A stretch of 64,000 nt of DNA from Chitinophagales bacterium (GTDB lineage: Bacteria; Bacteroidota; Bacteroidia; Chitinophagales; UBA2359): positions 1 through 64,000 of the forward strand of contig JAEUUX010000121.1 in NCBI GenBank assembly GCA_016787295.1, read 5' to 3'. This document shows, one piece after another, positions 37,279 through 41,377 of the stretch. The notes under the pieces are model-generated. The model did not search any database. It was not told where the DNA came from and was given only the letters and a program-made list of their open reading frames with translations. Position 1 is the stretch's first letter. Each line of letters opens with the position of its first letter. A program made the position numbers and the translations under genes.

Positions 37279-37743
37279 TATACTAAATTGAAAATACTTT
37301 TCGGATTTGATAATGAACGATGTTACGTACTCGTCTCAAAATGCAACATCAATTAACAGCAATTTGCCATTCCTCGAAATACTATTATCGTAAGCATCAA
37401 ATCGTGATTCCGCTTTTTTGCTCACCCAAAAAGCAACAAAAAAGGGTGTTCTTTTTCGAGTGGATTCTTCTGGCGTGCGGTGGTCTTTGCCTACATTTTG
37501 TGGTAGCAAGCAAAATGGTGCGAAAATTGTCTGTTTTGTTGTATTAGCTACCACAAAATGTAGGCAATCGTTGAGGCAGTTTATCAGTCTTTGTCTGTTC
37601 ATTCGTGAATTGATGCCTCAACGACCGAAACAGCACTATTTCGGACAGCGAAAATAGTGTAGGCAGAGGCACGTTTTTTGTGACCGCAATTATTCGACTG
37701 TCAACATTTTACAAAATCCGAAGGCTGTATTCAATTTAGTATA
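37279..37743 (-). mobile_element. Rep-A, copy 2 (inverted)
   Basis: A 465-bp copy of Rep-A in opposite orientation to that at 25177, bounded by TATACTAAATTGAA and TTCAATTTAGTATA. It keeps the internal inverted pairs and a short open frame ending ...ISRNGKLLLIDVAF. It ends 26 bp before the glycosyltransferase start codon. Confidence 0.85.
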
Positions 37744-37769: not shown

Positions 37770-39050
37770 ATGAAAATACTGAAAATAATACACGGCTATC
37801 CGCCAAATTATAATGCAGGGTCAGAGGTGTATAGCCAATCTATCTGTGAAGAATTGGCAAAACGCCATCAAATTATTGTTTTTACACGCGAAGAGAATTT
37901 TTATATCGCGGATCATAGTATCAGAAAAGAGTATAGACATAATATTGTATTTTATATTGTTAATAAGGCTCGTGAAAAAGATACATATTGTCATAATGAC
38001 TTAGATAGGTTATTTGCTGAAATTATACAGACAGAACAACCTGACGTTGCTCACATTGGGCATCTAAATCACCTTTCGACGGGTTTGGTTGAGGAATTGA
38101 AAAAGCAAAATATACCAATAGTATTTACCTTACACGATTTTTGGCTGATGTGTCCACGGGGGCAATTTTTGCAAGTAAATTTTGCCAATCCTGATTTTCA
38201 TCAACTTTGTGATGGGCAGGAAAACAGAAAATGTGCTATAAATTGTTATAACCGTTGTTTTTCAGGTAAATCCGAAAACTACGATGCTGATTTACAGTAC
38301 TGGGAAAATTGGATTGGCAGTAGAATGAATGAAACAAGGCAAATGATTGATTTAGTAGATATTTTTATTGCTCCATCAAGATATTTACTTAATCGTTTTG
38401 TCATAGATTTTGGAGTGCCGGCACCCAAAATACTATATTTAGATTATGGTTTTCCACTTCATTATTTATCACCGATAGTGGCTAAAAATAAAACCTATTT
38501 TACATTTGGCTATATTGGCACGCATATTCCTTCAAAAGGCATTGACTTACTACTTAATGCATTTTCAAAAATAACAGAAAAAAGTAGGTTAAAAATTTGG
38601 GGACGCGAAAATGGACAGAGTACGCAAAGCTTGAAAATAATGGCAAGTAATTCTATAAACGAAGTACATTTTATGGGCGAATATATTAACAGTAATCTTG
38701 TACATGAGGTTTTTATTAATATAGATTGTATTGTAGTTCCTAGTATTTGGGGTGAAAACTCTCCATTGGTTATTCATGAGGCACAAGCCTGCAAAATACC
38801 AGTTATTACAGCTAACTTTGGTGGTATGTCAGAATATGTACAGCACTTGATAAATGGACTTCTCTTTCAACATCGCAATGTAGATGATTTAGCTGAAAAA
38901 ATGCTTTGGGCTTTGCAAAATCCTAACAAAATGCGAGAGTTAGGCGAAAAAGGCTACTTATACGATAAAAATGGAAGCGTCCCTGATATTGAAAAACATT
39001 GTACAACTTTAGAAATAATCTACCAAAAATTAATAGATGACAAAGTGTAA
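37770..39050 (+). CDS. Family 4 (GT-B) glycosyltransferase with Cys-rich insert
   Basis: First gene of a four-gene operon. The 426-residue protein has the GT-B layout: an N-terminal acceptor domain (KIIHGYPPNYNAGSEVYSQS) and a C-terminal nucleotide-sugar domain with FGYIGTHIPSKGIDLLLNAF and the E-x7-E-type loop PSIWGENSPLVIHEAQAC. Between residues about 120 and 165 lies an insert with six or more Cys (HDFWLMCPRGQF, LCDGQ, RKCAINCYNRCF), a feature of a subset of GT4 enzymes. It would transfer a sugar to an unknown acceptor. The gene overlaps the radical SAM gene by 14 bp. The sequence is clearly more AT-rich than the surrounding housekeeping genes. Confidence 0.85.
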   Translation: MKILKIIHGYPPNYNAGSEVYSQSICEELAKRHQIIVFTREENFYIADHSIRKEYRHNIVFYIVNKAREKDTYCHNDLDRLFAEIIQTEQPDVAHIGHLNHLSTGLVEELKKQNIPIVFTLHDFWLMCPRGQFLQVNFANPDFHQLCDGQENRKCAINCYNRCFSGKSENYDADLQYWENWIGSRMNETRQMIDLVDIFIAPSRYLLNRFVIDFGVPAPKILYLDYGFPLHYLSPIVAKNKTYFTFGYIGTHIPSKGIDLLLNAFSKITEKSRLKIWGRENGQSTQSLKIMASNSINEVHFMGEYINSNLVHEVFINIDCIVVPSIWGENSPLVIHEAQACKIPVITANFGGMSEYVQHLINGLLFQHRNVDDLAEKMLWALQNPNKMRELGEKGYLYDKNGSVPDIEKHCTTLEIIYQKLIDDKV

Positions 39051-40065
39051 TATTTGGCGTTTGACGCTTGACACCAATCCCGAGGACTGCAACCTTTCTT
39101 GTACTATGTGCGAAGAGCATAGTCCTTTTTCTACATATATTAAAGAAAAGTTAGGAGGCAAACATCGTCGTATGCCCAAAGAATGGTTGGAGCCTATTTT
39201 TCAACAAGCTCAAGCAATGGGGGTAACAGAAATAATTCCCTCAACCATGGGCGAACCATTGATTTATAAACATTTTGCTCTGTTTGTAGAACTTTGTTAC
39301 AAATATGGCATCAGAATGAATCTTACAACCAATGGTACTTTTCCAAAAACAACCGAAAAAACCGTAACAGAATGGGCAAAACTTATTGTTCCGATAACTA
39401 CAGATATTAAAATTTCTTGGAATGGAGCATCAAGTATTATTGCACAAGAAGTTATGCTTGGCATTGATTTTGAACAAACAATAATCAATGTCAAGGAACT
39501 TGTGCTGATACGCAACGAACATTACAAGGTAACTGGGCATTATTGTCGTATCACATTTCAGCTTACTTTTATGCAAAACAATATGCACGAACTATCAGAC
39601 ATTATAAAATTGGCTGCACAATTAGATATTGACCGTGTAAAGGGACATCAACTGTGGACTCATTTTAATGAAATAAGGCATCTTTCATTTCGCCAAAACA
39701 CAGAGAGTATTGCCATTTGGAATAATTTTGTTCGGCAAGCACATGAAACGGCGGAGTTGCACCGCAAGCCTAACGGACAAAGAGTCTTACTAGAAAATAT
39801 CATTCCACTCCAACAACAAGAGACAAAAGAAATTCCTGAAAACTATGAATGTCCTTTTCTCAATAAAGAGCTATGGATTTCAGCAACAGGTAAAATTTCA
39901 CCTTGTTGCGCTCCCGATGAGTTGCGCAATACATTAGGAGATTTGGGTAATTTTAAGGTCAATACTATTACAGAAAGTGTGGAAAGTGCAAGCTATCAAA
40001 ATTTACTCAAAAACTATAAAAATATCCCTTTGTGTAAAACTTGCAATATGCGAAAACCGATATGA
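39037..40065 (+). CDS. Radical SAM enzyme with C-terminal SPASM-like cluster
   Basis: A 342-residue radical SAM protein. The [4Fe-4S]-SAM motif CxxxCxxC is at Cys18, Cys22, Cys25 (DCNLSCTMC). A GGEP-equivalent reads MGEP (IIPSTMGEPLIY). The C-terminal part has Cys272, Cys290, Cys291, Cys333 and Cys336 (CPFLNKELWISATGKISPCC and LCKTC), fitting a SPASM/twitch auxiliary cluster as in enzymes that modify peptides or cyclitols. No precursor peptide gene is visible, so a small-molecule or sugar substrate is as likely as a peptide. Its stop overlaps the next start (ATGA at 40062). Product unknown. Confidence 0.85.
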   Translation: MTKCNIWRLTLDTNPEDCNLSCTMCEEHSPFSTYIKEKLGGKHRRMPKEWLEPIFQQAQAMGVTEIIPSTMGEPLIYKHFALFVELCYKYGIRMNLTTNGTFPKTTEKTVTEWAKLIVPITTDIKISWNGASSIIAQEVMLGIDFEQTIINVKELVLIRNEHYKVTGHYCRITFQLTFMQNNMHELSDIIKLAAQLDIDRVKGHQLWTHFNEIRHLSFRQNTESIAIWNNFVRQAHETAELHRKPNGQRVLLENIIPLQQQETKEIPENYECPFLNKELWISATGKISPCCAPDELRNTLGDLGNFKVNTITESVESASYQNLLKNYKNIPLCKTCNMRKPI

Positions 40066-40763
40066 AATACAATGAACTAATATTATCCTTTGACCAAACC
40101 CATTTTACTTACAAAGGAGAAAATATCTTTGGGAAAACCTTTCTACAAGCCTTGAAATTTCATAAAGAAGGTTTGGCAGCAGTATGCGATTATTCGGGTT
40201 GGTATCATATTACTATGCAAGGTTGTTGTTTATACGATGCACGTTACTCGCGCACTTTTGGCTATTATTGTCAGCGTTCGGCAGTAGTAGATGCTCAATC
40301 TTGGTATCATATTGATATTGTTGGAAAACGCGTGTACTCTGAAAGCTACGTTTGGTGCGGAAATTATCAAGAAAACATTTGTACTGTTAGATGCGATGAT
40401 AATAGATATTTTCATATAGACCTGAATGGAAAACCCGCCTATCCTGAAAAATATCACTATGCAGGCGATTTTAAAGACGGTTTTGCTTGTGTTAGATTGC
40501 CGAACGGTTTATATAAACATATTGACATGAAAGGAAACTTTTTGAACAATAAAATGTTCCTTGATTTGGGAGTATTTCATAAAGGTATTGCCAATGCAAA
40601 AGACGAAAATGGGTGGTTTCATTCAGACAAAAATGGCAAGGAACTATACCCACAACGATACCAACAAATAGAAGTTTTTTACAATGGCTTCGCATTGACT
40701 GAAACTTTTGATAACCAAAAAATAATCATTAATGAACAAGGTAAAACTATTCTTAATCTATGA
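40062..40763 (+). CDS. WG-repeat-like protein
   Basis: A 233-residue protein built of about five related ~40-residue units, each with an aromatic-HID/HIT core followed by G and a Tyr pair: GWYHITMQG, SWYHIDIVG, RYFHIDLNG, LYKHIDMKG, GWFHSDKNG, separated by motifs such as YAGDFKDGFACV and VFHKGIANAK. This is the pattern of WG-containing repeats, which fold as beta-propeller or solenoid blades. No catalytic residue set is visible, so a binding or scaffold role in the operon is likely. The start at 40062 overlaps the radical SAM stop; an ATG at 40041 is less likely. It ends overlapping the phosphatase start (ATGA at 40760). Confidence 0.75.
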   Translation: MKYNELILSFDQTHFTYKGENIFGKTFLQALKFHKEGLAAVCDYSGWYHITMQGCCLYDARYSRTFGYYCQRSAVVDAQSWYHIDIVGKRVYSESYVWCGNYQENICTVRCDDNRYFHIDLNGKPAYPEKYHYAGDFKDGFACVRLPNGLYKHIDMKGNFLNNKMFLDLGVFHKGIANAKDENGWFHSDKNGKELYPQRYQQIEVFYNGFALTETFDNQKIIINEQGKTILNL

Positions 40764-41266
40764 TTTTGTATTTAGTTCGTCATGCTGAACCTCAAATCGC
40801 AGAATACTCCGGTTTTCCAGGTCCCCAACTAGGAACAATTGGCAAAAAACAAGCCATTGCTATAGCTAATTTTTTGAAAAATAGACCTATTCAACAAATA
40901 ATTGCAAGTGACTATACAAGGGTTCTGGAGACTATAGAACCTTATCAAATACTTGCCCAAAAACCATTGTATAATTTACCTGAATTAAGGGAACGTGAAA
41001 ATGAAATAGAAACTCATGAAGAATTAGTGACCAGAGTACAAACTTGGTTTAGATTGTTTTTAACAAATAATAGGTATAATACAGTTATTGTCAGTCATTG
41101 CGGACCCATAAATATGATACTTTGGGAATTAGATTATGACCAGACTATATTAAACTATCCTTTTGAGTGCAAATATTTATGCCTTACTCCAAAAGCAGGA
41201 ATCTGGGAATTACAGATCGATAACCAAATTTTAATATCAGGCAGATTGATAATGGAATGTTGTTAA
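40760..41266 (+). CDS. Histidine phosphatase (phosphoglycerate-mutase-like)
   Basis: Last gene of the four-gene operon. The 168-residue protein has the branch-1 histidine phosphatase core: LVRHAEP with Arg7-His8, Arg54 in SDYTRVLET, and the second catalytic His113 in VSHCGPI. It would dephosphorylate a small phosphoester; given the neighbours, the phosphorylated product or precursor of the glycosyltransferase/radical SAM pathway is the natural guess (inference). It is shorter than a typical phosphoglycerate mutase. A terminator follows 66 bp later. Confidence 0.85.
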   Translation: MILYLVRHAEPQIAEYSGFPGPQLGTIGKKQAIAIANFLKNRPIQQIIASDYTRVLETIEPYQILAQKPLYNLPELRERENEIETHEELVTRVQTWFRLFLTNNRYNTVIVSHCGPINMILWELDYDQTILNYPFECKYLCLTPKAGIWELQIDNQILISGRLIMECC

Positions 41267-41332: not shown

Positions 41333-41377
41333 TTCCCTCATCAGATAACTTTAAGTTTCTGATGGGGGAAATTAATT
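41333..41377 (+). terminator. Terminator of the four-gene operon
   Basis: Arms TTCCCTCATCAGA and TCTGATGGGGGAA (one mismatch) with a 12-nt loop, followed by an AT-rich tail. The rest of the 41267-41541 gap is AT-rich with nothing recognised. Confidence 0.75.

Follow-up and report, generated by a model that had tools for sequence, protein, structure and literature searches.

Four genes in the same orientation, encoding a GT4 glycosyltransferase, a radical SAM/SPASM enzyme, a WG-repeat protein and a histidine phosphatase, were identified in the window, the whole stretch of 64,000 nucleotides that was analysed (Table 1). The Pfam scores were 106 bits for Glycos_transf_1, 40 for Radical_SAM, 36 for SPASM, 42 for WG_beta_rep and 62 for His_Phos_1, and the start of the WG gene was set at the ATG at 40062. 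The first-pass annotation had described overlaps of 14, 4 and 4 bp between the genes, intact catalytic motifs, a shared terminator and an A+T-rich base composition, and its description was borne out. The overlaps agreed with the ORF coordinates, and the E-x7-E motif of the glycosyltransferase, CxxxCxxC with five C-terminal cysteines in the radical SAM enzyme and VRHAEP and SHCGP in the phosphatase were all present. A stable hairpin was found behind the last gene, and the GC content of the operon was 34.5% versus 41.0% in the rest of the window, with 3.3% of equal-length stretches being equally low.

Table 1. Genes and terminator of the operon at 37770-41266 of the window
Feature	Position	Strand	Assignment
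GT4 glycosyltransferase, 426 aa	37770..39050	+	Pfam Glycos_transf_1; orthologue of WD0613 N-terminal half
Radical SAM/SPASM enzyme, 342 aa	39037..40065	+	Pfam Radical_SAM and SPASM; orthologue of WD0613 C-terminal half
WG-repeat protein, 233 aa, six repeats	40062..40763	+	Pfam WG_beta_rep; orthologue of WD0614 N-terminal part
Histidine phosphatase, 168 aa	40760..41266	+	Pfam His_Phos_1; one of the family's three exchangeable phosphatase types
Intrinsic-terminator-like hairpin, 3' of last gene	41333..41370	+	Folding: -22.9 kcal/mol, z -3.84, 0/200 shuffles equally stable

The glycosyltransferase shared 54-69% identity with 18 homologues, and E329-x7-E337 was invariant in the 19 aligned sequences. 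In the radical SAM enzyme, the CxxxCxxC motif (C18, C22 and C25) and the C-terminal C272, C290, C291, C333 and C336 were invariant in 30 aligned sequences; with this motif and the auxiliary-cluster cysteines all kept, the protein belongs to the radical SAM/SPASM enzymes. Its fold neighbours included the peptide-modifying SuiB, SkfB and EpeE and also sugar and nucleotide enzymes, viperin among them. The NCBIfam equivalogs BshA, MshA, PqqE, CobC and tungsten-oxidoreductase maturase were rejected, with scores far under their cut-offs. The WG-repeat protein (39-64% identity among homologues) was predicted to be an all-beta structure with a pLDDT of 96.9, for which the fold search returned only loose beta-propeller matches (TM about 0.5-0.6). 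The invariant polar residues of its six repeats vary by repeat (GNYQEN, GDFKDG, FHK and FYNG), and this repeat-to-repeat difference suggests a specific binding pocket and not a mere repeat structure.

In a survey of collections with one genome per species, a radical SAM homologue at 47-76% identity was detected at 80 loci, mostly in Bacteroidota, and also in Leptospiraceae and in one MAG each of Spirochaetaceae, Anaerolineaceae, Melioribacter and a Rickettsia endosymbiont. GT4 was found in 76 and WG in 77 of the 80 loci, counts which are slightly inflated since L043 and L044 are apparently one scaffold in two MAGs and L021 and L022 are 99.98% identical; several of the exceptions were short contigs. 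GT4 and radical SAM, separate genes in the window, were fused as one protein in 51 of the 76 GT4-bearing loci, and the gene order of the window was also found in L067 and L074. The check proposed by the first-pass annotation, conservation of the radical SAM gene with the WG gene, came out in favour of the claim: among 299 genomes of the same order, WG was present in 11 of the 11 radical SAM-positive genomes (p=2e-18), a linkage far beyond chance. Two genomes of the 299 had WG only, one as a partial match and the other as a copy with an internal stop. In a sample of 396 genomes from the phylum, radical SAM and WG were both present in the same two genomes. The protein distances of GT4, radical SAM and WG were correlated, with r of 0.69-0.86. 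Each of the four proteins comes from a large common superfamily, and they might be ordinary metabolic genes which became adjacent by accident, but the conserved order, the fusions, the co-occurrence and the correlated divergence leave that explanation with hardly any probability, and the co-occurrence has already refuted it. The cassette itself, as a conserved set, is well supported.

A phosphatase was present in 64 of 73 complete loci and was not seen in the other nine. It was of three kinds, with one locus counted under two of them: a histidine phosphatase upstream of WG (30 loci), a tyrosine-phosphatase type usually fused to a Pol-beta nucleotidyltransferase (31 loci), and the histidine phosphatase behind WG as in the window (4 loci). 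Since unrelated enzymes with like activity were swapped for one another, dephosphorylation is probably a needed step of the pathway; the Pol-beta nucleotidyltransferase was dispensable. An O-methyltransferase adjoined WG in many loci and was fused to it in WD0614 and in Arsenophonus. This enzyme is of the small-molecule dimerising type and resembles natural-product and phenol methyltransferases, and its nearest solved relatives are mostly enzymes of small natural products. In some loci a NodU-type carbamoyltransferase, a kinase-like protein or a second radical SAM protein was also found. All findings are consistent with a sugar- or phosphate-type substrate and a partner role for the WG protein, given the GT4-radical SAM fusions, the exchangeable phosphatases, the small-molecule O-methyltransferase and the WG-methyltransferase fusion.

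The first-pass annotation had considered the four genes a possible new system belonging to no named pathway. That they form a real conserved set was confirmed, but the core of the cassette had been described before, as WD0613-WD0614 (UC3-UC4) in the Undecim Cluster of Wolbachia phage WO, so the cassette is partly known. For the Undecim Cluster genes a role in glycan synthesis or methylation has been predicted (PMC9203015), and among their products WD0613 is one of the more abundant, with homologues noted in Haliangium, Capnocytophaga, Saprospira and Desulfovibrio (PMC4701759). WD0613 is a fused GT4-radical SAM protein with about 47-49% identity over its radical SAM portion, and copies are located on Rickettsia and Arsenophonus plasmids. 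The UC3 orthologue of the window had 46.9% identity across the whole radical SAM part and 578 bits with the GT4 HMM. In WD0614 the WG part is fused to an O-methyltransferase, whereas the WG protein of the window, orthologous to that WG half, stands alone. The eleven-gene set WD0611-WD0621 was not matched by the four-gene operon of the window, which had none of the additional Undecim genes (epimerase, GlmU-like protein, PhyH dioxygenase, ABC exporter, threonine aldolases and UDP-glucose dehydrogenase). In the Undecim stretch that was read, neither a phosphatase nor an RtcR-like activator was annotated, whereas the window set has a phosphatase. A possible tie between the copies on Rickettsia plasmids and an array of aminoglycoside genes was discarded, as the literature source makes no connection between them.

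Two other groups of enzymes were similar to the cassette. Radical SAM enzymes acting on sugars or cyclitols are involved in aminoglycoside and nucleoside antibiotic pathways, in which NeoM and KanF are GT4 partners; BtrN gave a weak sequence match and BlsE and DesII gave fold matches. However, identities in the fold alignments were below 20%, and no aminocyclitol synthase occurred among the conserved neighbours of the cassette. The TIGR04157 glycosyltransferase/TIGR04148 radical SAM loci of Bacteroidota, which are associated with GG-leader peptides, also pair GT4 with a neighbouring radical SAM/SPASM gene in this phylum, but the window proteins scored 42 bits (GT4) and 14.5 bits (radical SAM) versus cut-offs of 400 and 300. 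In the openly licensed literature, nothing was found on WG repeat and radical SAM together, nothing related on RtcR with viperin, and no account of the link to the regulator, the exchange of phosphatases, the location in defence islands or the prophage cassette.

Of the 54 loci whose upstream sequence was long enough, 35 had an RtcR/PspF-type CARF-AAA+ sigma-54 activator near the operon, mostly divergent, and about a third had none. The activator belongs to the PADLOC class RtcR_PspF1 (250-276 bits for the long forms), and its long form carries a CARF-like N-terminal domain. The -24 element TGGCAY was found between activator and operon in 21 of 36 such loci versus 2 of 33 others (p=3e-6), with about 5 in shuffles. 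Broken tRNA, in the form of fragments ending in a cyclic phosphate, is known to activate RtcR (PMC7790460), and for RtcR-like proteins outside rtc loci a link to restriction-modification and a possible sensing of infection products have been described (PMC4012209). Many relatives share with the RtcR-regulated rtcBA operon a divergent CARF-AAA+-HTH sigma-54 activator and the TGGCAY element, but RtcA and RtcB were absent from the conserved neighbours of the cassette, and the window copy had no such regulator. At the window locus no activator was present, and the source genome gave only AAA-domain matches to other proteins. The best sigma-54-like site of the window, AGGCACGTTTTTTGTG at 37667, was no better than chance, and it was rejected as a promoter.

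The setting of the homologous loci was assessed with the PADLOC-DB 2.0 models on 133 flanking proteins, up to two per side of a locus, and on a small control of 78 genes. The flanks gave matches to methyltransferase (6e-249), GajA (5e-183), pAgo (1e-146), SduA (7e-137), LmuA (5e-106), type IV restriction (3e-90) and AbiLi (7e-83), and the 78 control genes matched mad2/mad3 only, at 6e-28 or weaker. Strong defence matches were obtained for at least 10 of the 133 flanking proteins, where 10 is a reading of the family list and not a per-protein count, versus 0 of 78 controls (p=0.015). By this comparison the homologous loci lie in defence islands, their flanks being rich in genes such as those of Gabija, pAgo, Shedu, Lamassu and R-M; AbiLi was placed at L041, pAgo at L094, DarT at L050 and SoFic at L036. 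Viperin was encoded within the operon of L023, L072 and L075 (230-280 bits). The cassette shares with pVip the occurrence of radical SAM enzymes in defence islands, and true pVip lies inside the operon of these three relatives, but the window enzyme carries SPASM and scored 33 bits to pVip versus 230-280 for true pVips. Compared with PADLOC-DB 2.0, the window proteins gave no known defence system, the weak superfamily matches of the radical SAM enzyme (pVip, 33 bits) being the only ones.

The cassette is mobile among bacteria, phages and plasmids. On an IMG/VR temperate phage contig, the activator, GT4, radical SAM, phosphatase, methyltransferase and WG genes lie between endolysin and integrase; a second phage contig has GT4-radical SAM and WG, and neither phosphatase nor methyltransferase was found there. 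More copies occur on Arsenophonus plasmids and in phage WO. The family tree mixes bacterial families, and cassettes of Flavobacteriaceae and Cytophagales shared about 86-92% DNA identity, and the main matches did not extend beyond the cassette. The window operon is a compact copy of this mobile cassette, without an O-methyltransferase gene, a CARF-type regulator or evident defence neighbours, and it would presumably do the same job as its relatives. In the wider family the regulator, the islands, the phages and viperin point, as context, to a role in conflict or defence.

Several functions could be assigned to such a set. The enzymes may modify a surface glycan, a role already put forward for the Undecim Cluster, with a sugar being added to or altered on exopolysaccharide or LPS and the phage carriage and mobility reflecting a change of phage receptor. 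Membership in the GT4 family and the GlmU-like protein, epimerase and UDP-glucose dehydrogenase annotated in the Undecim Cluster (PMC9203015) agree with this, but flippase, polymerase and lipid-carrier genes were not recurrent among the conserved neighbours, the O-methyltransferase is of natural-product type and a CARF-type activator is atypical for glycan loci, which makes a surface glycan unlikely. Only a little less doubtful is the modification of a protein or peptide, in which radical SAM and GT4 would act on WG itself or on a small upstream peptide to give a RiPP-like product. WG is as constant as the enzymes, SuiB, SkfB and EpeE are peptide enzymes, and small basic Asn/Gly/Pro-rich peptides of three families were located just upstream of GT4 in about 18 loci; however, no such peptide was recognised beside the window operon, and WG lacks a leader/core layout, its predicted structure being a single stable fold. 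A RiPP made from the upstream peptides was rejected, as only 5 of the 11 genomes with the family-1 peptide, out of 299, had the module, and this peptide was also encoded next to a permease and other ordinary genes.

RNA repair or nucleotide modification, with the enzymes acting on damaged tRNA ends or on nucleotides, would explain the link to an RtcR-type regulator, the fusion of a Pol-beta nucleotidyltransferase to the phosphatase in one branch and viperin among the fold neighbours of the radical SAM enzyme. It is nevertheless quite improbable, with RNA ligase and cyclase families not recurrent among the conserved neighbours, an O-methyltransferase of the small-molecule dimerising type and a nucleotidyltransferase that can be dispensed with. 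The most economical reading of the enzyme set is a small-molecule glycoside as product, for which the chances appear about even. An inducible pathway leading to a glycosylated, radical-modified small molecule that is used in conflict with phages or competitors may be right or wrong in equal measure. In such a pathway, GT4 would attach a sugar to a (possibly phosphorylated) acceptor, the glycoside would be oxidised or rearranged by the radical SAM enzyme in physical association with GT4, and the phosphatase would take the phosphate off, while the WG protein might bind the intermediate and present it to the tailoring enzymes. In most loci the cassette would be switched on by the CARF-AAA+ sigma-54 activator, which may sense RNA damage or an infection-derived nucleotide. 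This order of reactions, the identity of the product and the defence role are what gene content and setting together suggest.

More tentatively, and with somewhat less than an even chance, the cassette could be a chemical defence system that is widespread in Bacteroidota and their phages, in which a CARF-AAA+ protein senses RNA damage or infection and switches on GT4-radical SAM-WG to make a protective glycosylated small molecule. If this is true, the Undecim Cluster of Wolbachia would be a specialised relative of this system. A well-expressed and so far unexplained pair of phage WO genes is now tied to a widespread free-living system, which offers a testable trigger (CARF/RtcR-type activation) and a setting (defence islands and prophage cargo). 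A chemical defence system of this kind, if right, would provide a new enzyme set for chemical defence and a pathway context for a WG-repeat protein.

Organization of the cassette varied among the loci carrying a homologue of its radical SAM gene. In a Dysgonamonadaceae locus (L080) the operon was enlarged between the radical SAM and WG genes, and in locus L029 it was split by a transposase-like ORF, with radical SAM on one side and WG on the other. The cassette was adjoined by McrC-like genes in L055, L062 and L070; the one tested, from L055, had no match to the PADLOC defence-system models at the applied threshold, so the McrC reading is one made by eye. L043 and L044 were apparently a single 13,705-base scaffold assigned to two MAGs of different families, apparently a binning artefact.

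Two protein families of about 100 residues each, with no clear Pfam match, were encoded between the RtcR-like gene (a sigma-54 activator) and GT4, and among contigs of sufficient length they were restricted to loci with the RtcR-like gene. In about 18 loci GT4 was directly preceded by coding sequence for small basic peptides with a high content of Asn, Gln, Gly, Ser and Pro; these peptides fell into three families. Family 1 was enriched in module-bearing genomes (5/11, p=3e-5) and also occurred away from the module; in one case (L150) it immediately adjoined a viperin-type gene.

Features at the cassette loci and in the genome of the source organism
Feature	Position	Details
Interrupted operon	L029:2800-4900	
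Enlarged operon	L080:9109-13846	Lying between radical SAM and WG: aldolase-like, histidine phosphatase, second radical SAM/SPASM, APH-type kinase, SPASM-phosphatase fusion, carbamoyltransferase
~100-residue proteins	L020:2220-2561, L045:6417-6716	And others
Small basic peptides	L021, L026, L035, L040, L042, L048, L118	And others
Small basic peptide	C105:12018-12146	Own genome
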